The position numbers were made by a program, and so were the translations under genes. Positions 3,893-43,344 of a stretch of DNA of 53,643 nt are shown here, one piece after another (the stretch's first letter is position 1; each line of letters starts with the position of its first letter). The DNA comes from a virus. The stretch covers positions 1-53,643 of IMG/VR virus record IMGVR_UViG_3300034268_000054. One strand, written 5' to 3'. The notes beneath the pieces are model-generated. The model searched no databases. It was not told where the DNA came from and was given only the letters and a program-made list of their open reading frames with translations.

Positions 3893-3980
3893 GTTTCAGT
3901 TCTGAGAAATACCCGAGACGCAGCCAGGGGTGATCCGTAGAATTCAGGGTGTCGAGACCATATAGGAGGGCAAAGACAAA

Positions 3981-4157
3981 ATGCCTGACGGGCTTTACCG
4001 GTTCCCTTCGGGAAGTGAGCGCGAAGCCGCCTTGAAGGTGGCGAGGGAACGGAGAGAAGGAAACCTCTCCTATTTCGAGCGCTACAGAAAGACTATGCCG
4101 GTTGTCGCCGCAATGAAGGGAACCCCGCGGCGACCTCCGTCCGGCGGGGCGGCATGA
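3981..4157 (+). CDS. Small basic hypothetical protein (58 aa)
   Basis: ATG 3981 lies 11 nt after AGGAGGG. The product starts MPDGLYRFPSGSEREAAL, continues with a charged helix (KVARERREGNLSYFERYRK) and ends in a short basic proline-rich tail (GTPRRPPSGG). It follows the terminator at 3.84 kb and leads a group of small genes running to 5.05 kb. The strong ribosome-binding site and amphipathic helix support a real gene. No family is recognised. Confidence 0.6.
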   Translation: MPDGLYRFPSGSEREAALKVARERREGNLSYFERYRKTMPVVAAMKGTPRRPPSGGAA

Positions 4158-4790: not shown

Positions 4791-5048
4791 ATGCACGAGT
4801 TTTACTTCGATGACTTCGACAGCGTGACCTGGGATTACGTGGAGGATCTTCTCGACTCCGGCGAGTACGGCGACTTCGAGGATGACGATCCGGAGTCCTA
4901 CCTCGAATTCGACATGACCTACAATCCGTTCGATATAGGCGAGGACGAGCATCACTCCTTCGGTGCCGTCCGCCGCTTCCTTCTGGAGTCGGGCGTCGAT
5001 GAGGATGATGAGGCCGCCAAGATCTTCCTCACCGACCGCGACGACTAA
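4791..5048 (+). CDS. Very acidic small protein, possible DNA mimic (85 aa)
   Basis: About 30 of 85 residues are Asp or Glu against 4 Arg/Lys, spread along the chain (FDDFDSVTWDYVEDLLDSGE; GDFEDDDPESYLEFD; DEDDEAAKIFLTDRDD) with aromatics between. Such charge patterns occur in DNA-mimic proteins (Ocr, ArdA and similar anti-restriction proteins) but also in unrelated small phage proteins, so that role is only a suggestion. ATG 4791 is 12 nt from AAGGAGG; a TTG that touches the Shine-Dalgarno is less likely. It is the last gene before the two-way terminator. Confidence 0.65.
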   Translation: MHEFYFDDFDSVTWDYVEDLLDSGEYGDFEDDDPESYLEFDMTYNPFDIGEDEHHSFGAVRRFLLESGVDEDDEAAKIFLTDRDD

Positions 5049-5068
5049 GCGACAGATCGAGCGATAAC

Positions 5069-5114
5069 AAAAAAGGCCGGTATCCAGGGTAACTCCCGGA
5101 TACCGGCCTTTTTT
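5069..5114. terminator. Strong bidirectional terminator between convergent modules
   Basis: Six A, then GGCCGGTATCC (5075-5085), a 12-nt loop that can pair again (AGGG/CCC), then GGATACCGGCC (5098-5108) and six T. This is textbook and symmetrical. It ends both the rightward small-gene block and the long leftward late transcript. Confidence 0.95.
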
Positions 5115-5122
5115 GCGTTTGC

Positions 5123-5716
5123 CTACGTTGCCGTCACAAGCCAGTCGTCAACAGTGGATGCGATGCCGCCGAATCCGTTCACGATGATGCCGACTTGAGG
5201 GTTCGTCAAGAGAGCGCTGCTTACCTCGGTGTGCTGGTGTCCCAGCGGTCCCGTCGCAGTGATGACGTTGCCCTTTGCTTCGAGCGTCACGGTCCCCGTG
5301 CTGCCGGGAAGCAGAGGTCCCTTGAACGTATCGGGACCGCCGTTTACTAAGGACATTTGCCAGCCGCTGTTCGCGAAGTCGTAAAAGACTTCCCAATAAT
5401 GACTGTTGTCCGACCTGCGGATCAGAAGCCCGATTAGATTCTCGACGTGAGTGACGTTGACGCTCAATTTCACGTCGGCCGAGCCGACATCCATGAAGGC
5501 GTGACGGATCACCGGATCAGTCCGGCTGAGGCTGTAGCTTTGAATCGTAAAACCCGCAGTTCCTCCCGAGCTTTGCGACCACGCCGGCCCCTTATCCGGC
5601 GAGTGACTGAGCAGCGCGGTTCCGTTCGCGCTGGTGAACGTGTCCCGAGACAATATCCGAATGGTTGGGCCGTCGTCAGCCTGACTTGAGATGAAGGGGG
5701 AGAGGCTGAGCCTCAC
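5123..5716 (-). CDS. Concanavalin/LamG-like jelly-roll protein, probable virion surface or adhesion (197 aa)
   Basis: The sequence is almost all beta: DTFTSANGTALLSHSP near residue 25 (the start of a LamG/glucanase-like sandwich), then RHAFMDVGSADVKLSVNVT, GLLIRRSDNSHYWEVFYDF and VTLEAKGNVITATG, ending VDDWLVTAT. These are hallmarks of laminin-G or sugar-binding jelly rolls. There is no signal peptide. It is the promoter-distal gene of the leftward late transcript, overlapping the upstream gene by 4 nt. Likely a receptor- or polysaccharide-binding virion component; that is inference from fold type and position. Confidence 0.65.
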   Translation of the reverse strand: MRLSLSPFISSQADDGPTIRILSRDTFTSANGTALLSHSPDKGPAWSQSSGGTAGFTIQSYSLSRTDPVIRHAFMDVGSADVKLSVNVTHVENLIGLLIRRSDNSHYWEVFYDFANSGWQMSLVNGGPDTFKGPLLPGSTGTVTLEAKGNVITATGPLGHQHTEVSSALLTNPQVGIIVNGFGGIASTVDDWLVTAT

Positions 5717-6079: not shown

Positions 6080-7093
6080 TTACTTCGACGTAATGACAGA
6101 CAACGGACGCTCCGGGCCTTCGCCCGGTTCGGGGAACTGGAAGCCGCGAATGAACGTCAGGCCACCCGAGTTGAAGATCCTGCCGACGTTCCACTCAGTG
6201 GTGAACTTGAGACTGGTGTACGTCGCAAACTGTTCATGCAGGTAGAAAGTGAAGGTTTCGGGATTCGCGATGATCTCCGTCTCCACCCGGTCGCTGTATC
6301 GCTTCACTCGAAGGGGGTAGGCGAGCTTCACCTTCGCGAGGTCCGCGGGCTTCATCTTGGCTGCGCCGCCGAGGTCGTCGCCCGCGCGCAAAAGCATCTG
6401 GGCGCCGCGAGCTGCGGCGTAAAAGTTATCCCCCCAGATACCCGGCTTCGCGGCCGGACCTAGCTGCGGCAGCCGCTTCACGAGGCGGTAGACCATCGTC
6501 CCCACCTCCGTGCAGGGAAGCCCCTGTACGCGAGCGCCAGCGCTACAGATCTGTCCGTTCGGCGTTGCGACCGCGGAGTAGACGGCGAACAGGTCGCGGA
6601 AATACTGACTCGTGGCGTCGATCACGTCCTGGTGCTTGAACTCCAATGCTCCAATCCGAATCAGCATCACAGAAGCGAGGTGGAAGTTGTGATGAGGATC
6701 GGCGCAGAGCATTTCGCCCCGCATGATTCCGTTCGTTCTCTCCCACACGAGATAGGAAAGCACCTTGCGCCGCCAGAACATCTGATAGGCATTGCGGCGA
6801 TCCGCGGGAATCCAGGCCGGCAGCGCTCCGCCGCGCCATACGCGGACATATTCGGTGGACCACGCCATGGCCTGATAGTTGGCCGTCCCGGGCTTGTCCC
6901 GCCCGACCAACGGGCCTCCGGGCCAAAGGTAGCTATCCTCGTTCAACATCAAGAGATAGTCGTTATCGAGGACCGGAGTCGTCTCGCCGTCGAGCACTTG
7001 AGTCAACCGCTCGACTAGCGGCTTGTGAGTAGCAGCGGTGACTGGCAGTGAGCAAATCGCGGCCAGGGCGACCGCGAGGTACGTCTTCTTCAT
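6080..7093 (-). CDS. Secreted protein with signal peptide, paralogue of the 2.9-kb protein (337 aa)
   Basis: A clear signal peptide (MKKTYLAVALAAICSLPVTA, cleavage about residue 20) precedes a helical domain. It shares ordered motifs with the product of 2905-3804: EYVRVWRGGALPAW, CADPHHNFHLAS, EFKHQDV, AGDDLGGAA and FYLHEQF. It adds about 40 residues at the N-terminus and a different C-terminus. The conserved His/Asp pairs could form an active site; a polysaccharide- or peptidoglycan-directed activity would fit an exported helical protein in a late operon, but this is not shown. An exported and a cytoplasmic copy of one family in one phage is unusual. Confidence 0.75.
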   Translation of the reverse strand: MKKTYLAVALAAICSLPVTAATHKPLVERLTQVLDGETTPVLDNDYLLMLNEDSYLWPGGPLVGRDKPGTANYQAMAWSTEYVRVWRGGALPAWIPADRRNAYQMFWRRKVLSYLVWERTNGIMRGEMLCADPHHNFHLASVMLIRIGALEFKHQDVIDATSQYFRDLFAVYSAVATPNGQICSAGARVQGLPCTEVGTMVYRLVKRLPQLGPAAKPGIWGDNFYAAARGAQMLLRAGDDLGGAAKMKPADLAKVKLAYPLRVKRYSDRVETEIIANPETFTFYLHEQFATYTSLKFTTEWNVGRIFNSGGLTFIRGFQFPEPGEGPERPLSVITSK

Positions 7094-8049: not shown

Positions 8050-9228
8050 TTATAGAACCTTCCCGGCGTGCGAAACTGAGACCGAGATGTGCCCGGCGTA
8101 TCCGGACTTCAACTCCCAGAGGTAGGCTTCGGCCGCACGTACCGTGCTGTTGTAGCCCATCTTTGTGATCCAGGATGACGGAGCAGCGAGCGAAGGAAGC
8201 CAGCGAAGGCGCACCCCTGTTTGTTCCATCATCATCATTCGGTGTTCGTGGCCGAGGTGAATCTCTCGGTGCGTCGTCTTCGGCCAATCCTTCGGATTCT
8301 CGCTGGCGATCAGCGCCACCAGCTCTTGGGGTTTTTCGTATCGACCATGCGTCCAGCCGATCAGGTTCGTTCCCCACCGCCTGTACTTTCGCATCATCGG
8401 CCCGCAATCCACGGTGACGTTCTCATCTCTCCGGAACCACGCGCCGAGAACCTGCGCGACGTGGAAGGTAAGAGCTTCGTCGTGATTGCCGGGGATGGAA
8501 ATCACCTCGACAGGCGCACGCTCCTTCAACCGGTTAATGGCTTCGATCAGTACGGCCTGCCCTTCGGAGACGATCTCGTAGTAGCTGCTCGCTACATCCT
8601 GCGGCGTGCCGTTAGTCGTCGCCTTCGCGAGCGTGTCAATGTGAAGGAAGTCATTCCCGACGGGGAAGATGATCTTGTCCACCTGATAAACCCGCGCCCT
8701 CTCCAGCAGCTCATCAATCACGTCCAAGAACATGCGGCTCGCCATCTTCAGGTTGTACTTCGCTCCCGTCTCGACCGCACGGGAGTAAAGACCGAGGTGA
8801 AGGTCAGGAACGCCGATCTCCAAGAGGTGTGACCGCTCCGGATAGAGCCTGGAGGACCGATACTCCCTTGCCTTCGCCCGTGGCCCGGACGCCGCGAGCT
8901 TTTCGAGCAGAGATTCCACGATGGCCGGCGATGGATTCGGCCGGAATGTACCCTTTGCCTGATAAGCTACGAAAGGTCCCCTCTTGTCCTGCTGCACCCA
9001 GGCGTTCGGCTTGAATGCCACCGTCTCATAGTCATCGGGAATCTGAGCAGCGTCGCGGAGATCCTGCTCAGTAATGAGCCCGATATGCCGGGTTCCGTTC
9101 TTTACCTCCATGGTCGTCTCGTCAACCGGAACCGACGTTACCTCTGTCGATCCGTCTTCGAGGCGTTTCGTTGAAACCTTGATCTTCTTGCTCGTCCCCT
9201 TCTTAACCTGGGGACCCTTGGATTTCAA
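8050..9228 (-). CDS. Calcineurin-like metallophosphoesterase (392 aa)
   Basis: The two-metal phosphoesterase motifs occur in order: DLHLG (about residue 142), GNDFLH (about 190), GNHDE (about 245) and GHEHRM (about 328). These bind Mn/Fe and hydrolyse phosphoester bonds in nucleic acids, nucleotides or proteins. The N-terminal 100 residues are basic at first (MKSKGPQVKKGTSKKIK) and may contact nucleic acid. TTG 9228 has AAAGGAG at 9 nt and overlaps the previous stop (TTGA). With the two nucleotide enzymes immediately upstream it forms a nucleotide or nucleic-acid metabolism group. Substrate unknown. Confidence 0.85.
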   Translation of the reverse strand: MKSKGPQVKKGTSKKIKVSTKRLEDGSTEVTSVPVDETTMEVKNGTRHIGLITEQDLRDAAQIPDDYETVAFKPNAWVQQDKRGPFVAYQAKGTFRPNPSPAIVESLLEKLAASGPRAKAREYRSSRLYPERSHLLEIGVPDLHLGLYSRAVETGAKYNLKMASRMFLDVIDELLERARVYQVDKIIFPVGNDFLHIDTLAKATTNGTPQDVASSYYEIVSEGQAVLIEAINRLKERAPVEVISIPGNHDEALTFHVAQVLGAWFRRDENVTVDCGPMMRKYRRWGTNLIGWTHGRYEKPQELVALIASENPKDWPKTTHREIHLGHEHRMMMMEQTGVRLRWLPSLAAPSSWITKMGYNSTVRAAEAYLWELKSGYAGHISVSVSHAGKVL

Positions 9229-9692
9229 ACAGGGCTCTCCTTTTTCCTTCGCCGTGCCGAGCGCATCTTCTCGGACTTCCTTCGCTTGATGATCGTGCTC
9301 AGCTCGTCAAGGACTTCGCCGAGAAATCCATCGCCTCCGGGGCGGTCATCGATCAGATTGCCGGTAGCTTCTGCGTCCAGGATGATCGCGCAGCAGGCTA
9401 TGGCGTGCCCAAGGTGATGGACCTCGCTATCCTTCGCCTGTCGCTGGCCCTCGAACCACGAGTCGAGATGCCTTTTTGCCGCGTCGATATAGATGCTCGC
9501 GACTACCGCCTTATCTCTCCAGTTGTACGCTCCGTACTTCTCGGCTCCGTCCATCATCGCGTGCGCCCCGTGGGCAACTGCAACGGCAGGAAGCTTGGAC
9601 AGAGAAACCTTGATGTTGCCATACAGGTCTTTCGGGTTTGGGCCGGGCGCCTTCGACCTCGGCTTTACCGTCGCGCCTTTCCCTTCGGTCAT
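9225..9692 (-). CDS. DUF5664-type dATP/dGTP diphosphohydrolase-like protein (155 aa)
   Basis: The pattern AVAHGAHAMMDGAEKYGAYNWR, then YIDAAKRHLDSWFEGQ and EVHHLGHAIACCAIILDA is characteristic of the phage family described as dATP/dGTP diphosphohydrolase N-terminal (DUF5664), a MazG relative. Its Lys-Tyr-Gly/Asn-Trp-Arg and RHL...HLGHA blocks are intact. Members include MazZ of diaminopurine phages, but no PurZ gene is seen here, so pool cleaning is the likelier job. The C-terminus is very basic (RRKSEKMRSARRRKKE). Start and stop overlap both neighbours by 4 nt. Confidence 0.7.
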   Translation of the reverse strand: MTEGKGATVKPRSKAPGPNPKDLYGNIKVSLSKLPAVAVAHGAHAMMDGAEKYGAYNWRDKAVVASIYIDAAKRHLDSWFEGQRQAKDSEVHHLGHAIACCAIILDAEATGNLIDDRPGGDGFLGEVLDELSTIIKRRKSEKMRSARRRKKESPV

Positions 9693-22449: not shown

Positions 22450-24050
22450 TAGTTCAAGCCCTGCTCGGCGTAGTCGATCTCGAAGCCGTCAAGCTCTACA
22501 GCCTCCGAAGGAAGTTGCTTTCCGTCTATGAAGTCGATGCGGAACTGGTGGAAATTGCCAGAGAAGGATTTAGGGAGGTAGATCCATCCCGCGCCATCGG
22601 TTGCGAACGAAGAGTCTGTCAGCGACGCTCCGAACGGCTCGTTCCGAGTATTCACTGTGACCGTGACCTTGATTCCGCTCGTCCCACTGGCCATCGAATA
22701 AATCGGACGAACTCTCACAATCCGACTCGACTTTCCGGCTATCAGCTCGTAGAAGGCCGTTGTGAAGCGCGGCTTACTAGCGCTGCTGAGCGTCAGCTTC
22801 GCAACGTACTCAGAAACTTCGAGGAAGTTATTCTGATTTACTACCACGATCCCGCGGCCGGGCGTCCACTGTGCGCCGGTATCGGGAACCTGGATAAGCA
22901 TGCGAGCGCCTTCAAGAGGACCGGAGCCCGTATCTGTAATGAAGCTGAATCGACCCTCGGCGAAGTTGTAGATGAGAGTCACTCGGCGCCCGGTGTTCTG
23001 CGTTCTGTAGCACCACCACACCAGGGAGTTGGCTACGTCCGCCGCGCCGTACAGCTCCGCTCTTTCAAGGCCGATCTGAATCGAGACATCCGAGAAGCCT
23101 GTTCCGTTGTCGATCAGCGTGCGAACCATTCCGCTCGCCCCCAGCACCAGCGGGGGGCCTTCCCCTCCGCGCAATACAGTGGGACCGGCCTCTCCCCAAT
23201 AGTACGTATCGTCTCCGACCTGCACGATTGAATTGGGATACCGACAACCGGTTCCGCGAACGACAGTCCGAAATGCGAAGGGCGGACCCTCCATCCGGAC
23301 AACCGCGCGCTCCTTGAAAATCACGGCCCAATCTCCGCCAGAGCTGAGGCCCGTTACGTGACCGAAGCCGTCCTCGATTGGCTGGCGATCGGAATTAGTT
23401 AGCCAGGGCGTAGTTCCCGGCGTTCCAAAGAATCTCGGCGTGTCCGTCCCGGACCACCACACTCCGGTGGGCGTCGTGACTCCGCCTACCGAATAATGTC
23501 CAAGGAGAAGATGATTTCTGATGGAGGAGATGTAACGAGCCTTCGGGTCTGCGGCGCTCGGCGCACCAGTACCCGCGCTAACGGGAGGTGTGGTTAGGTT
23601 CGCCTTGCTGAATTTCGCATCGCCCTCCGTAAAGATCTGAATGTCATCCGCGAAGTTAGTCGCGTAGACACTAGTGCCATAGCTAGTGAACTGCCATCCG
23701 CTGATAGAGTCTGACGGAAATAGGTACGGACCTCCGGCTGCGCGCGTCCTATCCGTTTCCGTGAGCGCGTCGAGATCGACTTCGATCAACTGGTGGGGAG
23801 TCGCCCCCGCCCTGGCGAAGTAGAGCTTGTATTTATCGCCCCCAATCGAATGGGCGTGGCGCCCGCTCTGAAGTAGAGCAATCATTCCGCCCACTCCCAG
23901 GCGCGCAGTAGAAGAGGCAGCAGGAGCGGCGATGTAGTGGTTGAAGATCGGAACGACGTTACTGCATTCGATCAAGGCGCCATTGGCATTGTTGTTGAAC
24001 AGCTTTTGGTCCGGACTCAGCTCGCCGAACGGGATGAAAGTAACCGGCAT
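22449..24050 (-). CDS. Tail hub/stabilisation protein, P22 gp10-like beta-propeller (533 aa)
   Basis: Repeated four-strand blades are visible as recurring Gly/Trp/Asp patterns: LYFARAGATPHQLIEVDL; WQFTSYGTSVYATNFADD; SSGGDWAVIFKERAVVRMEG; YYWGEAGPTVLRGG; TLIYNFAEGRFSFITD. The phrase VIFKERAVVRMEGPPFAFR is typical of podovirus head-closure/nozzle proteins of the P22 gp10 or T7 gp12 kind, which extend the tail tube. The gene lies just after the adaptor, as expected. It starts at ATG 24050, one base after the adaptor stop region. Confidence 0.78.
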   Translation of the reverse strand: MPVTFIPFGELSPDQKLFNNNANGALIECSNVVPIFNHYIAAPAASSTARLGVGGMIALLQSGRHAHSIGGDKYKLYFARAGATPHQLIEVDLDALTETDRTRAAGGPYLFPSDSISGWQFTSYGTSVYATNFADDIQIFTEGDAKFSKANLTTPPVSAGTGAPSAADPKARYISSIRNHLLLGHYSVGGVTTPTGVWWSGTDTPRFFGTPGTTPWLTNSDRQPIEDGFGHVTGLSSGGDWAVIFKERAVVRMEGPPFAFRTVVRGTGCRYPNSIVQVGDDTYYWGEAGPTVLRGGEGPPLVLGASGMVRTLIDNGTGFSDVSIQIGLERAELYGAADVANSLVWWCYRTQNTGRRVTLIYNFAEGRFSFITDTGSGPLEGARMLIQVPDTGAQWTPGRGIVVVNQNNFLEVSEYVAKLTLSSASKPRFTTAFYELIAGKSSRIVRVRPIYSMASGTSGIKVTVTVNTRNEPFGASLTDSSFATDGAGWIYLPKSFSGNFHQFRIDFIDGKQLPSEAVELDGFEIDYAEQGLN

Positions 24051-35103: not shown

Positions 35104-35422
35104 ATAGTTCTCTTGCAATCTCCTTTCCGAGCTTGAGGATTAGATCGTCGGGCAGTCCCTCGAAGGTGACCGCCAAGCGATAGCAGACTTCAAACAGGAT
35201 CAGTTTCGACGTTTGCTTCTTGCCAGCCCTGTTGAGTCGAGTCAAAAGGAACTTCTCGGCCTGCCTAGTCCTGGTAATGTCCAGCGGCGGCTTAGTCCCC
35301 AGCTCTATCTGACTCAAGTAAGACATGGTGACAGGCGGATGGACGGCGGCGCCCACTTCTTTGAGAAGGACGCCAGCCTCGTCCCTCATGCGCCGTAGTT
35401 CTTTTCCGTATTCAAATCTCAT
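35090..35422 (-). CDS. XRE-family phage repressor (110 aa)
   Basis: Residues 5-50 are a textbook XRE helix-turn-helix: YGKELRRMRDEAGVLLKEVG, then VTMSYLSQIELGTKPPLD, where SYLSQIE is the recognition helix. The remaining 60 residues are helical and probably dimerise. Length suits a small CI-like repressor without a self-cleavage domain. ATG 35422 lies only 8 bases after the -10 box, so the message should be leaderless, like lambda cI from PRM. The promoter contains an 18-bp palindrome between -35 and -10, so it should repress itself. Longer upstream frames run antisense-like into neighbours and lack support. Confidence 0.85.
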   Translation of the reverse strand: MRFEYGKELRRMRDEAGVLLKEVGAAVHPPVTMSYLSQIELGTKPPLDITRTRQAEKFLLTRLNRAGKKQTSKLILFEVCYRLAVTFEGLPDDLILKLGKEIARELYDYG

Positions 35423-36456: not shown

Positions 36457-36903
36457 GAAGGCCGGCCGGCCTATTAGAAAAAATGCTTGTCAGGTCTACG
36501 GTGGTTAAGCGGGGACCGGGGCGATGGCGGATGGGCTCACCCCCCCCTGTGGAAAAGCTGCGGATATCCCGCACCAAACTACCGCGGCAGTGGGACGGCG
36601 CCGATGTATCTACTACCTCAGTCGTTGTGCGGGTGGCGGTGTGACGTGGCGTGTGCCATTCGTCCAGGCTAGCAGTCTAAGCCATTGCATTGCCTCCACT
36701 TACGTGCGCGCCGCAGTAGATAGGGAATCTGCTGGCGAAGGGGCTGGGGGGATCTTGCTCATTTCGGGGGATACCTTGCTTCCCCGCTACTCCTATCCCC
36801 TAAGCTGGGCGCCTTCCCTCTTTACCTTCCTTTGTGGAAGTACACTCACGCTAGGCGAAGAAGACACGCGGACCGAGCTTAGCTCCCCTCTCCCCTGGGA
36901 TGA

Positions 36904-36960
36904 CGGGGGATCGCTTGGGATGTCCGGTATCGCGTGGCACGGCGGGGGATCGCTTGGGAT
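36904..36960. repeat. 18-bp direct repeat, 39-bp period
   Basis: CGGGGGATCGCTTGGGAT is found at 36,904-36,921 and again, identical, at 36,943-36,960. The spacer contains GGTATCG, one of the iteron-like words. Part of the candidate origin. Confidence 0.8.
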
Positions 36961-37250
36961 TCCAGCTTGCCCTATCGTCTGGTATCCCTCCTATTCCCTC
37001 CATGCTCTTCTCTTGGGTCCTGGTATAACCGGAATACCTGGGATAACTGGTATCTCCCTCTATTCTCTCTATGTTTCTCTATGTCTCTCTATCCTCTCTT
37101 ATCTCCCCTTATAGCTGGTAACACTTCACCCACTAATCAGGGTATCGCCTTGTTTCCCCTTATTCACAGGTAATACCCTAAGCCCCTTTATTCTAATAGG
37201 TTAAGTAGGGTATCTCCAGGTATACCCCTATATAGTCCTTATATAGGCAT

Positions 37251-37881: not shown

Positions 37882-38120
37882 CTGCACCGTCAGCGGGGCG
37901 GCGAGGGAAAGCGAGCTGACAAAGCAAGCAAGCGGTTCTTTGAAATCCAGCGCTCGGTCCCCAGGTTGGGGGAGTCAGTAAGCCTTGCACCTGCTGCCGC
38001 AACGTCGAGAGACGGTTAACCGGTTAGCAGGAGGAAGCCGCAAACGGAAGACAAGGAATCGTGACCTAAACAAAAGCCCCCCGTAAAAAACCCCTGTTCT
38101 ACAGAGCGCGAGTGATCTTG

Positions 38121-38320: not shown

Positions 38321-38749
38321 ATGATCCACCTTTCAGATGACGGAACGCTGGACACTGTTTTCCGCTGCGATCAATGCGGAGAAGAGATCCGCTACACGTT
38401 CGACGGTGAAGGATCTTACGACGACTTTGTAGCCTGGGCAATTCAGGACGCGGAGGAGGAGCACGCTTGTGAAGGCGAGGAGGACTCTAGCGTACCGAAT
38501 CTCGACGGGATGAGTCCCGATGAGTTAGGGAAGTTTTGGGCTCGCCATCAAAGGGGATGGAAGCGGAAAGAGTTATTTCCCGAGGGCGGGAGGGGTACCT
38601 CGAAAGCAACGGCGGCACTAGCAAACTACGCAATCAACAAAACGACCGCCATGTCCTGCCGCGCTCGGGGCGATATTCAAGCTGCCGAGATTTACGAAAA
38701 GGTTTGCGAGAACATCTACTCCGCTCTTCCCGAGTGGGCACGGTGGTAA
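38321..38749 (+). CDS. Hypothetical early protein with Cys motif (142 aa)
   Basis: TVFRCDQCGEEIRYTFDGEG (residues about 12-31) is a beta-knuckle with CxxC, and EEEHACEGE adds His and Cys near 48, so a zinc ribbon is likely. The second half is helical (SKATAALANYAINKTTAMSC; AAEIYEKVCENIYSALPEW). AAGGAG is well placed before ATG 38321. It is the first clear gene of the early rightward operon. A hammerhead ribozyme begins two bases after its stop. Function unknown. Confidence 0.7.
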   Translation: MIHLSDDGTLDTVFRCDQCGEEIRYTFDGEGSYDDFVAWAIQDAEEEHACEGEEDSSVPNLDGMSPDELGKFWARHQRGWKRKELFPEGGRGTSKATAALANYAINKTTAMSCRARGDIQAAEIYEKVCENIYSALPEWARW

Positions 38750-38750
38750 C

Positions 38751-38814
38751 GGCGAAACGGGGAGCGATCCCCGTCCGTTGCGGGTGACTCCCGCGACGCT
38801 GACGAGCCAAGTCA
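38751..38814 (+). ncRNA. Type II hammerhead ribozyme 1
   Basis: All core parts are present in order. Half of stem II GGC (38,751-38,753); GAA plus the A-U pair opening stem III (ACGGGG/CCCCGU around loop AGCGAU); cleavage base C38775 in a GUC triplet. Then stem I CGUUGCGGG (38,776-38,784) with CCCGCGACG (38,790-38,798) around loop UGACU; CUGACGA (38,799-38,805); and the other half of stem II GCC. The tail AGUCA (38,810-38,814) is complementary to loop UGACU and predicts a pseudoknot. Cutting after C38775 separates the flanking genes. Confidence 0.92.
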
Positions 38815-38843
38815 ATCAATCCAAAAACACAGCGGGAGGAAGT

Positions 38844-39233
38844 ATGCGGCGATTCCTGGCGAAGCGGGATGACTGGTGCATGATCTCGGGCGAGCTGTCC
38901 GGAATGACTCAAGATGAAAGAGAGACGGCCACGGCGAAGCTCCTCGCGGAGATCCTAGACGGTGGTTTCGCTCCCCTCGAATGCGAGGGAGTCTACAAGG
39001 GGGAGAGCGAGCGATCCTTCCTTGTGATCGGAATCTCTCGGGATGAGGCGCTTCGCCTCGGCCGGATGTTTCACCAGGAGTCGATCATGCTCCCCGCCGG
39101 TCTCACCTACTGCGATGACGGCCGAACGGTGCCGATTCAAAGCATCGAAGATGGGGCTTCAGGCGATTCCTACTCACGGGTGAACGTGGCCGGGCGGCGA
39201 CAGGATCTTACGATCACGCTGGCGGCGGCGTAG
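38844..39233 (+). CDS. DUF3293-like protein (129 aa)
   Basis: The pattern CMISGELSGMTQDERETATAKL, then GFAPLECEGVYKGESERSFLVIG and RLGRMFHQESIMLPAGLTYCDDG matches small phage/bacterial proteins of the DUF3293 kind (E-SFLV...F-QES). Biochemical role unknown. ATG 38844 is used because GGGAGG stands 5-6 nt before it; the frame runs back into ribozyme 1, which is not coding. It is bracketed by ribozymes 1 and 2, so its message should be freed as a single cistron. Confidence 0.72.
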   Translation: MRRFLAKRDDWCMISGELSGMTQDERETATAKLLAEILDGGFAPLECEGVYKGESERSFLVIGISRDEALRLGRMFHQESIMLPAGLTYCDDGRTVPIQSIEDGASGDSYSRVNVAGRRQDLTITLAAA

Positions 39234-39236
39234 GGC

Positions 39237-39300
39237 GGCGAAACGGGGAGTGATCCCCGTCCGTTGCGGGTGACTCCCGCGACGCTGACGAGCCAAGTCA
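39237..39300 (+). ncRNA. Type II hammerhead ribozyme 2
   Basis: Same layout as copy 1 with one base change (the stem III loop is AGUGAU). Stem II GGC 39,237-39,239 with GCC 39,292-39,294; cleavage after C39261; stem I CGUUGCGGG/CCCGCGACG; CUGACGA 39,285-39,291; pseudoknot tail AGUCA 39,296-39,300. It starts three bases after the stop of the DUF3293-like gene. Confidence 0.92.
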
Positions 39301-39327
39301 AAAACGCGTATAACCGGAGACAAGTCA

Positions 39328-39936
39328 ATGGACAAGCTAACGCCCGAGATGGTGCATGAGATCGCTTCCGCTTTCAGCAAGGTAACCGGCCAAAAGTGGA
39401 ACGCTAAGCCTCGGTCAGAGGATGAGCGGTTCGACAAGCGGGCGAGGATTGTCCGCGCCGATGGGGCATACATCATGCTCTGGACTGTCTGGAATGACGC
39501 GGGGAAGTTGTCGATCACGGGCGGACTTGAGGCGCCGATTCCCGAGGGTTACTCACCGCTGCATCGTAGTCAACCGCAGTCGATCGGCGTCTCTCTGGCG
39601 AAAGGATCGGAGAAGGTCGCCCGAGACATCTCCCGGAGGCTCCTTCCGGAAATCGAGTCGTACATCGTGGAGGAGCGCGAGCGCCGAGAGGATCACACGG
39701 CGAAGAGGGATCGGATGTTTTCGGTCGCGATTGCGGTCGCACGCGCCTTGAAAGACAAACGCCCGAGCGAACAGGGTAAGGATGTTTATTACCTCTCGGG
39801 ACGCGGAGAGGACGACTCCAGGATCGATGCAAAGGTGCATTACGGGGGGCGCGTCACTTTCGATTTCAGCGTAGAGGGGGAGAGCGCGCCGAAGGTGGCG
39901 GAGGCGATCCTGGCCGCGATTCACGGGAAGGGGTGA
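39328..39936 (+). CDS. Hypothetical early protein (202 aa)
   Basis: Alpha/beta chain: KLTPEMVHEIASAFSKVTGQ, WNAKPRSEDERFDKRARIVR, a strand pair (YIMLWTVWND; LSITGGLE), a charged helix (ISRRLLPEIESYIVEERERR) and a C-terminal beta-alpha unit (KVHYGGRVTFDFSVEG; KVAEAILAAIHG). No catalytic motif is evident. CCGGAGAC precedes ATG 39328. It follows ribozyme 2, so its processed message should begin at 39,262 with a 66-nt leader. Family unknown. Confidence 0.68.
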   Translation: MDKLTPEMVHEIASAFSKVTGQKWNAKPRSEDERFDKRARIVRADGAYIMLWTVWNDAGKLSITGGLEAPIPEGYSPLHRSQPQSIGVSLAKGSEKVARDISRRLLPEIESYIVEERERREDHTAKRDRMFSVAIAVARALKDKRPSEQGKDVYYLSGRGEDDSRIDAKVHYGGRVTFDFSVEGESAPKVAEAILAAIHGKG

Positions 39937-39939
39937 CGC

Positions 39940-40155
39940 GTGAGCATTAAGCGAACGCCTCTTACGGGGGCTCCGCTTGAGCTTCCCGATCCGCCGGTCC
40001 CTCGGCGATTTGCGCTCTGCGATCGGGACCAGCCTTGCACCCATGAGCACACGCCATTCCGGGGTCCGATGCCTTGCACCGGCCCGCTTGTGTGCTCCGC
40101 CTGCGGATCGCTTTGGGATGCCGACTCGGGAAAGCTTCTCAAGAGAGGCGAATGA
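39940..40155 (+). CDS. Small Cys/His-rich protein (71 aa)
   Basis: Contains CDRDQPCTHEHTPF and MPCTGPLVCSACGSLWD: five cysteines and two histidines in 32 residues, a probable double zinc knuckle. GTG 39940 is three bases after the previous stop, so translation is likely coupled. It precedes ribozyme 3, which starts one base after its TGA. Function unknown. Confidence 0.62.
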   Translation: MSIKRTPLTGAPLELPDPPVPRRFALCDRDQPCTHEHTPFRGPMPCTGPLVCSACGSLWDADSGKLLKRGE

Positions 40156-40156
40156 C

Positions 40157-40220
40157 GGCGAAACGGGGAGCGATCCCCGTCCGGTACGGGTGACGCCCGT
40201 GCCGCTGACGAGCCAAGTCA
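40157..40220 (+). ncRNA. Type II hammerhead ribozyme 3
   Basis: Core as in copies 1-2, but stem I has changed with pairing kept: CGGUACGGG (40,182-40,190) with CCCGUGCCG (40,196-40,204). Cleavage follows C40181; CUGACGA 40,205-40,211; stem II GGC 40,157-40,159 with GCC 40,212-40,214. The loop is UGACG, so four bases pair with the GUCA of the tail (40,217-40,220). Confidence 0.92.
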
Positions 40221-40239
40221 ATAAAGAAAGGAAGGAGCT

Positions 40240-40785
40240 ATGGCACCCGTCTTTGACTCTGCGGAATTGGAAGATGGCCTAGTTTGCGTCCGATATCTGA
40301 CGCCGGGCGGTAGGGGGCGATTCAAGGTATCACCTGAAGTCTTTAGGTTGAAGGAAACAAAGAGAGGTTTTGACCTTGAAGTGATGGAGATGGAGTGGAA
40401 CCGGCGAAAGCAGGCGCATCTCCCCACGAAGGTGCGAACGGTTCTCCTGAAAATGGAGCGAACGGATGCCGAAGCGCTCGCGAGCCTCGGGGTGTCGATT
40501 GAACGTAAACGCGAGAAACCCGCGCCGAGCGGCTGGAAAAAGGGAATTGTCAGAATCATAGATCCCGAGGATCGGCGGCGGCGGCATGACGTTCTGGCGG
40601 AGATCTTTCAGGATTACGCGGTTGCTCGTGACGACTTCAGCGTAGTTCGCGTCTACCACATCCCCAACGGCGAGGGCGTTGCCGCGAAGAATCCGAACGG
40701 CGATCCCCGGCCCTGGTACAGCATCTCTGAGGCGAAGCGCGCAATTCAGGCTCATTACGAACACGACCACGCCCAGGCGGCGTAA
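40240..40785 (+). CDS. Hypothetical early protein (181 aa)
   Basis: Beta-rich first half (GLVCVRYLTPGGRGRFKVSP; KRGFDLEVMEMEWN; KVRTVLLKMERTD), then a linker with KREKPAPSGWKK and an alpha/beta second half (VLAEIFQDYAVARDDFSVVR; WYSISEAKRAIQAHYEHDH). A strong AAGGAAGGAG is next to ATG 40240. It follows ribozyme 3. No known domain is recognised. Confidence 0.68.
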   Translation: MAPVFDSAELEDGLVCVRYLTPGGRGRFKVSPEVFRLKETKRGFDLEVMEMEWNRRKQAHLPTKVRTVLLKMERTDAEALASLGVSIERKREKPAPSGWKKGIVRIIDPEDRRRRHDVLAEIFQDYAVARDDFSVVRVYHIPNGEGVAAKNPNGDPRPWYSISEAKRAIQAHYEHDHAQAA

Positions 40786-40797
40786 GGAGATAAGGCA

Positions 40798-40998
40798 ATG
40801 GCACGGACAGAGACGGCCGGAGTTGAGGAGCGGACCGAGCGGCGACACGAGCGGACGGCGATCTGCGGGAACTGCGGGGGAACGTTCAAGCCCTCGGCGA
40901 AGGGGCAGCGATTCTGCGATGATGATTGCGAAAGGGGCTCGGCGCTCCACATTCCAACGCGGCCGGGCGTTCCTCTCGGCTCGGCGGCGTTGGGATGA
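40798..40998 (+). CDS. Small zinc-finger protein (66 aa)
   Basis: After a charged N-terminus (VEERTERRHERTA) comes ICGNCGGTFKPSAKGQRFCD and DDC: a CxxC-x15-CxxxC set, as in short treble-clef or FCS-type fingers that bind nucleic acid or proteins. AAGGAGAT lies before ATG 40798. Its TGA overlaps the ATG of the next gene (ATGA), so the two are coupled. Confidence 0.65.
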   Translation: MARTETAGVEERTERRHERTAICGNCGGTFKPSAKGQRFCDDDCERGSALHIPTRPGVPLGSAALG

Positions 40999-41165
40999 TG
41001 ATGCAAAGGTTTTGGGAAAAGTCGGTCGTTGCAGCGCTCAAGGCCGGCATGACGGCTCACTGCGCCATCGCGTTCGCCGATGCCGCGGTCTTGGCCCTCG
41101 CCGAGCGAGCCGGAGGCGTCGGAAACGAAGACTCGCAATTCATCGCGTCAATTAGGGCGCTCTAG
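40995..41165 (+). CDS. Small helical protein (56 aa)
   Basis: MMMQRFWEKSVVAALKAGMT then AHCAIAFADAAVLALAERAG: two amphipathic Ala-rich helices. ATG 40995 overlaps the zinc-finger stop; longer frames upstream overlap that gene for 70 bases. It is followed by a 33-nt gap with its own AGGAGG and then ribozyme 4. Function unknown. Confidence 0.55.
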   Translation: MMMQRFWEKSVVAALKAGMTAHCAIAFADAAVLALAERAGGVGNEDSQFIASIRAL

Positions 41166-41198
41166 GAGCGCAATCCTCTTCAACAGGAGGTGATGCAA

Positions 41199-41261
41199 GG
41201 CGAAACGGGGCTCTGCCCCGTCTGGCGCGGGTGACTCCTGCGCCACTGACGAGCCAAGTCA
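41199..41261 (+). ncRNA. Type II hammerhead ribozyme 4
   Basis: The most diverged copy, with pairing kept throughout. Stem III is GGGGC/GCCCC with loop UCU. Cleavage follows C41222. Stem I is UGGCGCGGG (41,223-41,231) with CCUGCGCCA (41,237-41,245), now ending in a U-A pair. CUGACGA 41,246-41,252; stem II GGC 41,199-41,201 with GCC 41,253-41,255; pseudoknot tail AGUCA 41,257-41,261 against loop UGACU. Confidence 0.92.
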
Positions 41262-41295
41262 AAAACACTTACCAACGCAAAGGGAGGACGAAGGA

Positions 41296-41556
41296 ATGCC
41301 GCACTACAAGGTGGTGGGAAAGATCGAGGCACGCGTGACGAAGTACGTCGAGGCGGCGGACCCGGAAGCCGCGTTCGCTGCCGCGTGCGACGCCTGGGAA
41401 TTCGATGATCTCGACGCTTCCGAGGGATCGGTGATTTACGATCCGTCGATCACTGAGGTCCCCGAAACTACGAGCGAGACGCACTACGGCCCCACGGCTC
41501 CGGCCGCGTGGTTTGCTCCGGGAGGCGACGACCCTGCCGCTCCTCTCGCAAGCTGA
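41296..41556 (+). CDS. Hypothetical protein (86 aa)
   Basis: A compact ferredoxin-like pattern: HYKVVGKIEARVTKYVEAAD, a helix PEAAFAAACDAWEFDDL, a strand SVIYDPSITEV, then a disordered Pro/Ala tail. GGGAGG is 11 nt before ATG 41296. It is the last gene freed by the ribozymes; a terminator-like hairpin follows 15 bases after its stop. Family unknown. Confidence 0.62.
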   Translation: MPHYKVVGKIEARVTKYVEAADPEAAFAAACDAWEFDDLDASEGSVIYDPSITEVPETTSETHYGPTAPAAWFAPGGDDPAAPLAS

Positions 41557-42004: not shown

Positions 42005-42289
42005 ATGGCAAAGCTGATCCCAAAAGTGTTCGGATTCACAGTCGAGGGAACGCCGTACGTTGTTGAGCCCTACCCGCACCTGCTGGTGATCGAAGGATGC
42101 CTCGCGATCGATCGCCTCGAATGGATCGCCTACGACCCGGAGCGCAACCCCCGGCACCGCTCTTCGATCCGATTCGACAGCCTGAGAGAGGCGGTCGAGT
42201 TTTGGGATAACTACCAGACTCCGGCCGAGCGCCAGCGGCGCGAGTCTTTGGCGCTCCCGAGTCTGGCGAAGCAGTTGAGAGCAGCCTAA
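42005..42289 (+). CDS. Hypothetical protein (94 aa)
   Basis: Beta strands first (KVFGFTVEGTPYVVEPYPHL), then RLEWIAYDPERNPRH and a C-terminal helix (REAVEFWDNYQTPAERQRRE). AGGAAAGGAGC precedes ATG 42005. The stop is the left half of a perfect TAACCGGTTA. Function unknown. Confidence 0.62.
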   Translation: MAKLIPKVFGFTVEGTPYVVEPYPHLLVIEGCLAIDRLEWIAYDPERNPRHRSSIRFDSLREAVEFWDNYQTPAERQRRESLALPSLAKQLRAA

Positions 42290-42315
42290 CCGGTTACCAG
42301 GAGAAAGGGGAAGAC

Positions 42316-43344
42316 GTGAAGCCTTCAGATATTCGAAAACTACTCTCCGCCCTGGTGCCTCGGCGCCTGCCGGTTCTGATCCAAGGCCCCCCGGGTGTCG
42401 GGAAAACCATGCTGGTAGAGGGTCTCTCCAGTGAGATCGGCTACCGTCTGGTCGTTTCGCATCCGGTCATTTCGGAATCGATCGACTACAAGGGGATGCC
42501 GTCGATTTCCCGAGAGAACGGAGTCTCGCTGGCCGAGTGGATTCCCTACGGGGATATTCGGACTCTGATCGAAACGAAAGAGCCCACGATATGGCTCATC
42601 GATGACCTCGGTCAGGCTCCCTTGAGTGTGCAGGCGGCGCTCATGCAGTGGATTCACAAGGGGAGCCGAACGCTCAACGGTCAAAAGCTTTCCGATACCG
42701 TCAGCATCGTGGCCTGCACGAACCGGCGGCAAGACCGGGCCGGCGTCTCGGGATTCTTGGAGCCCGTGAAATCTCGATTCGTCACCATCGTGGAGCTTGA
42801 CGTGGACCATGATGAATGGGCGGAGTGGGCGATGGCAAGGGGGATCACTCAAACCCTTATCGCCTTCCTCCTCTACCGCCCCGAGCTGCTGTCAAAGCCC
42901 GATCCTAACCCCGATCTCCGGCAGAGCCCTTCCCCTCGCGGATGGGAGAGCGTGGCGGAGCTGCAAGCCGCTCTCGAAGACTTGCCGCGCCACATCCTTC
43001 TCGAAGCCATGACCGGCGCGGTAGGCGAGGGACCGGCGGCGGAGTATGACGGATTCCTGCGGGTGTTTCACAACCTGCCGGACTTCGATGAAATCCTTCG
43101 CAACCCGAAGCGCGCTCGCGTTCCGGAGGAGGCTCAAACGCTTTACGCCCTGTGCGGCATGCTCGCGATGGACGTACGCATCGACACCATGGACAAGGTT
43201 GTGACCTACGCGGAGCGGCTGGCCGTTGAGTTTCAGGTCGTGCTGGCAAAGTTCATGGAACGGCTCAACCCGGACGTGATCGAAACCCGAGCGTACGTGC
43301 GCTGGGCCACGTCGGACCTGGGCCTGCGGAGAGCCGCCGCGTGA
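42316..43344 (+). CDS. MoxR-type AAA+ ATPase (342 aa)
   Basis: Walker A GPPGVGKT at residues 24-31, Walker B TIWLIDDLGQA near 92-102, a sensor-type VSIVACTNRR near 135, and an arginine-finger region KSRFVTIVELDV. MoxR-family AAA+ proteins remodel partner proteins, usually together with a VWA-domain protein encoded next door; here that is the 44,397 gene. GTG 42316 has AGGAGAAAGGGG upstream. The C-terminal lid is helical. The target in the infected cell is unknown. Confidence 0.82.
   Translation: MKPSDIRKLLSALVPRRLPVLIQGPPGVGKTMLVEGLSSEIGYRLVVSHPVISESIDYKGMPSISRENGVSLAEWIPYGDIRTLIETKEPTIWLIDDLGQAPLSVQAALMQWIHKGSRTLNGQKLSDTVSIVACTNRRQDRAGVSGFLEPVKSRFVTIVELDVDHDEWAEWAMARGITQTLIAFLLYRPELLSKPDPNPDLRQSPSPRGWESVAELQAALEDLPRHILLEAMTGAVGEGPAAEYDGFLRVFHNLPDFDEILRNPKRARVPEEAQTLYALCGMLAMDVRIDTMDKVVTYAERLAVEFQVVLAKFMERLNPDVIETRAYVRWATSDLGLRRAAA

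Follow-up and report, generated by a model that had tools for sequence, protein, structure and literature searches.

Four type II hammerhead ribozymes between genes of a tailed phage, a further example of arrays at phage gene junctions

An array of four type II hammerhead ribozymes lies between genes on one strand of a 53,643-base record from an unclassified tailed phage (the window, meaning the whole stretch analysed). The array is real and was correctly identified, and it is a good further example of an arrangement known since 2011. Very probably the four copies are active, pseudoknot-assisted ribozymes that cut an early polycistronic transcript between genes, likely uncoupling the stability and expression of neighbouring genes. 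In this processing model, sequence, fold, position and conservation in relatives come from the present analysis, and that similar arrays cleave has been published; we infer that the four window copies cleave too, and that the phage benefits.

Four hammerheads in a same-strand gene block

The - strand of the window carries structural genes (portal, terminase) and the + strand replication genes (ATPase, HNH endonuclease, exonuclease, primase/helicase-like), the latter block being probably early as judged from its gene content. The ribozyme array stands at the beginning of this + strand block (38.3-41.6 kb), with each copy intergenic and about 65 nt long:

38321..38749, + strand: ORF that opens the rightward, probably early block and precedes copy 1; no match to any family
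38751..38815, + strand: hammerhead II copy 1; predicted cut after C38775; begins 1 nt past the upstream ORF stop TAA; RF02276 match at 38,750, 33.5 bits; pseudoknot tail 38810-38814
38844..39233, + strand: DUF3293 / S-AdoMet lyase-like ORF between copies 1 and 2; PF11697 E 1.8e-7, PF23780 E 1.5e-5
39237..39301, + strand: hammerhead II copy 2; predicted cut after C39261; begins 3 nt past stop TAG; RF02276 match at 39,236, 35.7 bits
39328..39936, + strand: ORF 3' of copy 2, 202 aa; no family match
39940..40155, + strand: small ORF ahead of copy 3, 71 aa; no family match
40157..40221, + strand: hammerhead II copy 3; predicted cut after C40181; begins 1 nt past stop TGA; RF02276 match at 40,156, 29.8 bits
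40240..40785, + strand: ORF 3' of copy 3, 181 aa; no family match
40798..40998, + strand: small ORF, 66 aa; weak zinc-finger/HNH-like matches, phrog_1333 E 7.7e-5
40995..41165, + strand: small ORF ahead of copy 4, 56 aa; no significant match
41199..41262, + strand: hammerhead II copy 4; predicted cut after C41222; begins 33 nt past stop TAG; RF02276 match at 41,198, 40.9 bits, above cut-off
41296..41556, + strand: ORF 3' of copy 4, 86 aa; no family match

The conserved core GAA-A ... U-H ... CUGANGA is present in all four copies, at the positions where an earlier note on this DNA had placed it, and recomputation gave the same cleavage sites. That note had proposed an Rfam scan, and the Hammerhead_II model (RF02276, cmscan/cmsearch) indeed matched every copy; the curated cut-off of 37 bits is passed by copy 4 only, with copies 2, 1 and 3 scoring lower yet far above chance in a 53,643-base window. 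The pattern GGCGAAAC-N10-30-GTC-N15-45-CTGANGAGCC likewise occurs four times in the window vs. not once in 100 dinucleotide shuffles. A further RF02276 match at 23,449 (9.8 bits) is attributable to chance, a near match at 35,229 is no more than chance would produce, and the Rfam scan of the window matched no other ribozyme family.

The layout is that of the phage clusters described by Perreault et al. 2011: single genes or short blocks are flanked by several copies, all on a single strand. Some junctions (39,936/39,940 and around 40,785-40,998) carry no ribozyme. Each copy is followed by a Shine-Dalgarno sequence and an ATG, with predicted post-cleavage leaders of 68, 66, 58 and 73 nt for copies 1 to 4. 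The copies are not intrinsic terminators because a T-run is missing after stem III (sequence and terminator scan), and scanning resolved no promoter or terminator around the block.

Other repeats and hairpins were observed elsewhere in the window. A short tandem-like repeat with 39-nt spacing, containing GGGGGATCGCTTGGGAT, lies between the leftward and rightward gene blocks (36884-36968), and a 43-nt repeat (38004-38046 and 42274-42316, 74% identical) with a TTAACCGGTTA / CTAACCGGTTA palindrome stands upstream of genes and is possibly a regulator site. A strong symmetrical hairpin at 5046-5144, flanked on each side by A- and T-runs (AAAAAAGGCCGGTATCC...) and with weak Thr_leader matches on both strands, looks like a bidirectional terminator.

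Fold, stem I variation and a predicted pseudoknot

Unconstrained minimum-energy folding returned the exact type II hammerhead for all four copies (z = -3.4 to -4.4), with loop-closed stems I (9-10 bp) and III (6-7 bp, first pair A-U), an open stem II of 3 bp, and 98.9% of cells paired across the copies. Within stem I, both partners differ in three pairs and a single partner in two more, and no pair is broken; slid controls gave no such changes. The earlier note had seen in this variation a strong argument for selected RNA structure: the variation with pairing kept is there, in three distinct stems as quoted, and selected structure is supported, but four paralogous sequences by themselves make modest evidence. 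Stem I is identical in copies 1 and 2, and since these copies are almost identical, the internal covariation rests on three stems.

A further element, absent from that note, is a predicted pseudoknot between loop I and the 3' tail. The tail AAGUCAA is kept 3' of stem II in all copies, and its AGUCA would be able to pair with UGACU of loop I, forming 5 bp in three copies and 4 bp in copy 3. A pseudoknot of the same kind proved necessary for one type II hammerhead to cleave fast (Perreault et al. 2011, PMC3088659). It is a common, not universal, trait of RF02276: a tail/loop I run of at least four pairs was found in 42% of the 207 copies listed in our survey (window included), vs. 21% with shuffled tails.

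Predicted processing of the early transcript

Under the processing model, cutting between genes while the early transcript is being made would yield gene-length mRNAs. The upstream product would end shortly past the stop codon, with the stem III hairpin plus one nucleotide and a 2',3'-cyclic phosphate, and the downstream product would bear a 5'-hydroxyl and begin flush with the 9-bp stem I hairpin, 58-73 nt ahead of the start codon. The likely benefit would be that the stability and expression of adjacent early genes are uncoupled, because both new ends would be hairpin-capped and 5'-monophosphate-dependent decay acts poorly on RNA with a 5'-hydroxyl.

Hairpins as strong as these might also act as stable intergenic structures (nuclease-blocking ends or translational insulators) whose cleavage is slow or regulated. 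Some orthologues do carry core changes (CCGANGA; an inserted base beside stem II), and regulation is possible at copy 1, where the start region is predicted to be more open after cleavage (0.62 vs. 0.32). This opening is small or absent in folds of copies 2-4, however, and the catalytic core letters, which plain hairpins do not need, are intact in all four copies, so that we regard such a role without prompt cleavage as very improbable. It is also possible in principle, with flanking ribozymes on one transcript, that ribozyme pairs release gene-length RNAs which are then ligated to circles or rejoined. Perreault et al. raised this possibility, sought such products and found none (PMC3088659), and the ribosome-binding site and start codon after every copy suit linear mRNAs, which makes circles or rejoined products extremely unlikely here.

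Relation to published hammerhead arrays

The earlier note held that phages were known to carry single hammerheads and knew of no intergenic series like this one. Its reading of a type II hammerhead in a phage operon with selected structure is supported by scores, folds, pair changes and orthologues, but the claim of novelty gives way: clustered prophage hammerheads flanking single genes, with a loop I/3' tail pseudoknot, were published in 2011 (Perreault et al., PMC3088659), and cultured phages carry up to nine copies. Self-cleavage has been shown in vitro for three of the published prophage arrays and in E. coli for one. In HF1/HF2, the 5' end of an early mRNA lies at most 3 nt from a hammerhead cleavage site (PMC3088659). 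A 2017 review left the role of prokaryotic hammerheads open while noting the phage link (PMC6155905), and the literature surveyed shows a benefit of hammerhead cleavage for no phage.

The window array shares with the clusters of Perreault et al. (RF02276) the type II architecture, the loop I/3' tail pseudoknot, and the placement of several copies around single genes in phage DNA with anti-restriction-type neighbours, although the neighbour is SAM-lyase-like here and ardA there. It differs also in that its four copies arose by within-genome spread, and in that the window phage is unclassified, with no close relatives in the collections searched: protein searches with the ATPase and with the ORFs at 39,328 and 38,844 found no relatives in viral_contigs, and neither terminase DNA nor array DNA had relatives in the phage collection. 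The hammerhead of the haloarchaeal phages HF1/HF2 is similarly located in an early operon with a start codon close downstream, but is described as one copy and has an in vivo 5' end at its cleavage site, whereas the window array is known from sequence.

Arrays across viral records

Hammerhead arrays at phage gene junctions are a common arrangement. A core-pattern scan of viral contigs gave at least 120 stretches, and a structural scanner requiring the core plus three stems identified at least 241 hammerhead copies in at least 113 viral records, window included, with no copy in reversed or complemented control sequences among the matches listed. A structural hammerhead is present in 112 of the 120 viral loci listed and, in a weak scan of genome_contigs, in 18 of the first 120 listed. 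All 44 multi-copy records listed in the first pass keep to one strand.

Position is similarly constrained among the 207 copies listed, which come from loci picked by a GGC/GCC stem II pattern with related contigs partly thinned: 53% start flush with the upstream stop codon (vs. 4% of random places), 52% have the next start codon 15-40 nt away (vs. 8%), and 25% combine the two (vs. 0.8%), the typical spacing ahead of the next start being about 25 nt.

Where orthologous copies occupy matching junctions, 94-100% of their stem pairs are kept, compared with 69-86% in shuffles that ignore kinship, and 5-11 of 14 pairs are changed on both sides. As judged from these alignments, this pairing is much stronger evidence of selection than the four copies of the window. 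Apparent losses of orthologous copies were not deletions in the ten pairs aligned; most reflected an extra base beside stem II, and one was a CUGA to CCGA core change overlooked by the strict scanner. At a few junctions where the consensus is retained in relatives, including one near 3.9 kb on the + strand of locus L097, the copy has a variant core (CCGACGA or CCGATGA) or a single additional base separating CUGANGA from stem II.

Orthologue comparison also bears on a reading of the array as recombination linkers or dispersing cassettes, i.e., short near-identical intergenic units for gene-cassette swaps in which cleavage is incidental. Every window copy finds its best match in another window copy (copies 1 and 2 share 98%), and the unit has therefore spread within the window genome; identity ends at the ribozyme edges, and the flanked genes vary widely among phages, all of which would fit such linkers. 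Linkers require sequence identity, however, while orthologous copies change their sequence with pairing and core kept, and the best match lies in the same record for only 27 of 142 copies of the multi-copy records listed. We thus consider linkers very improbable and retain the processing model.

Neighbouring genes and a possible link with counter-defence

The ORF at 38844-39233, between copies 1 and 2, is by its family matches a possible anti-restriction gene: DUF3293 (PF11697) scores above its cut-off, and the S-AdoMet lyase family (PF23780) reaches 25.4 bits, just below its cut-off of 28. For its protein, no match came up among solved structures, and phage matches were limited to a single weak one; the single-sequence AlphaFold model was too poor (pLDDT 46) for searching. 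The phage T3 enzyme, the first SAM-degrading one, is described in PMC7877911 as a counter-defence against restriction-modification.

Among 126 thinned-out genes directly 3' of hammerheads, Pfam recognises ArdA, ArdC and the SAM-lyase-like gene, and PHROGs gives two anti-restriction families, perhaps covering these ArdA/ArdC-type proteins, perhaps different ones. The 25 families listed for 83 control genes include no anti-restriction family, but these controls are unmatched for early genes, which makes the observation that hammerhead-flanked genes often look anti-restriction a lead and not a result. In Agrobacterium and Legionella, ardA adjoins hammerheads (Perreault et al. 2011, PMC3088659). 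It is conceivable, though rather doubtful, that the arrays represent widespread early-operon processing directed specifically at counter-defence genes in many phage lineages, in which hairpin ends with 5'-OH and cyclic phosphate would protect these messages from host RNA decay soon after infection.

Streptomyces phages R4 and Hank144

One surveyed clade matches cultured Streptomyces phages. R4 has nine copies above the Rfam cut-off, and Hank144 has seven above it plus two recognised by structure, with 8 of these 9 in annotated gaps and seven of those 15-26 nt ahead of the next start. As in the window, these arrays occupy junctions inside one same-strand gene block, and a Hank144 copy precedes an OCR-like antirestriction gene by 22 nt (locus L246:4669-5136). 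They differ in holding nine copies rather than four, and in that the orthologous copies are conserved across a phage clade, compared with near-identical paralogues in the window. No papers linking R4 or Streptomyces phages with hammerheads were found among the open-licence papers searched.

With the arrangement found by our survey to be frequent, tightly set between stop codon and leader, and nine-fold in R4, the remaining interest lies in the function of phage hammerheads, for which R4, a phage that grows on the laboratory strain Streptomyces coelicolor A3(2), is a tractable system that makes function directly testable. Current R4 annotation (JX182370.1; locus L247) overlaps its hammerheads in several places: the small genes gp75.1, gp67.1 and gp60.1 (3898-3999, 6855-6947 and 9227-9310) overlie hammerheads and are probably not real genes, and the annotated starts of gp72, gp76, gp77 and gp79 extend into hammerheads and are probably too early.
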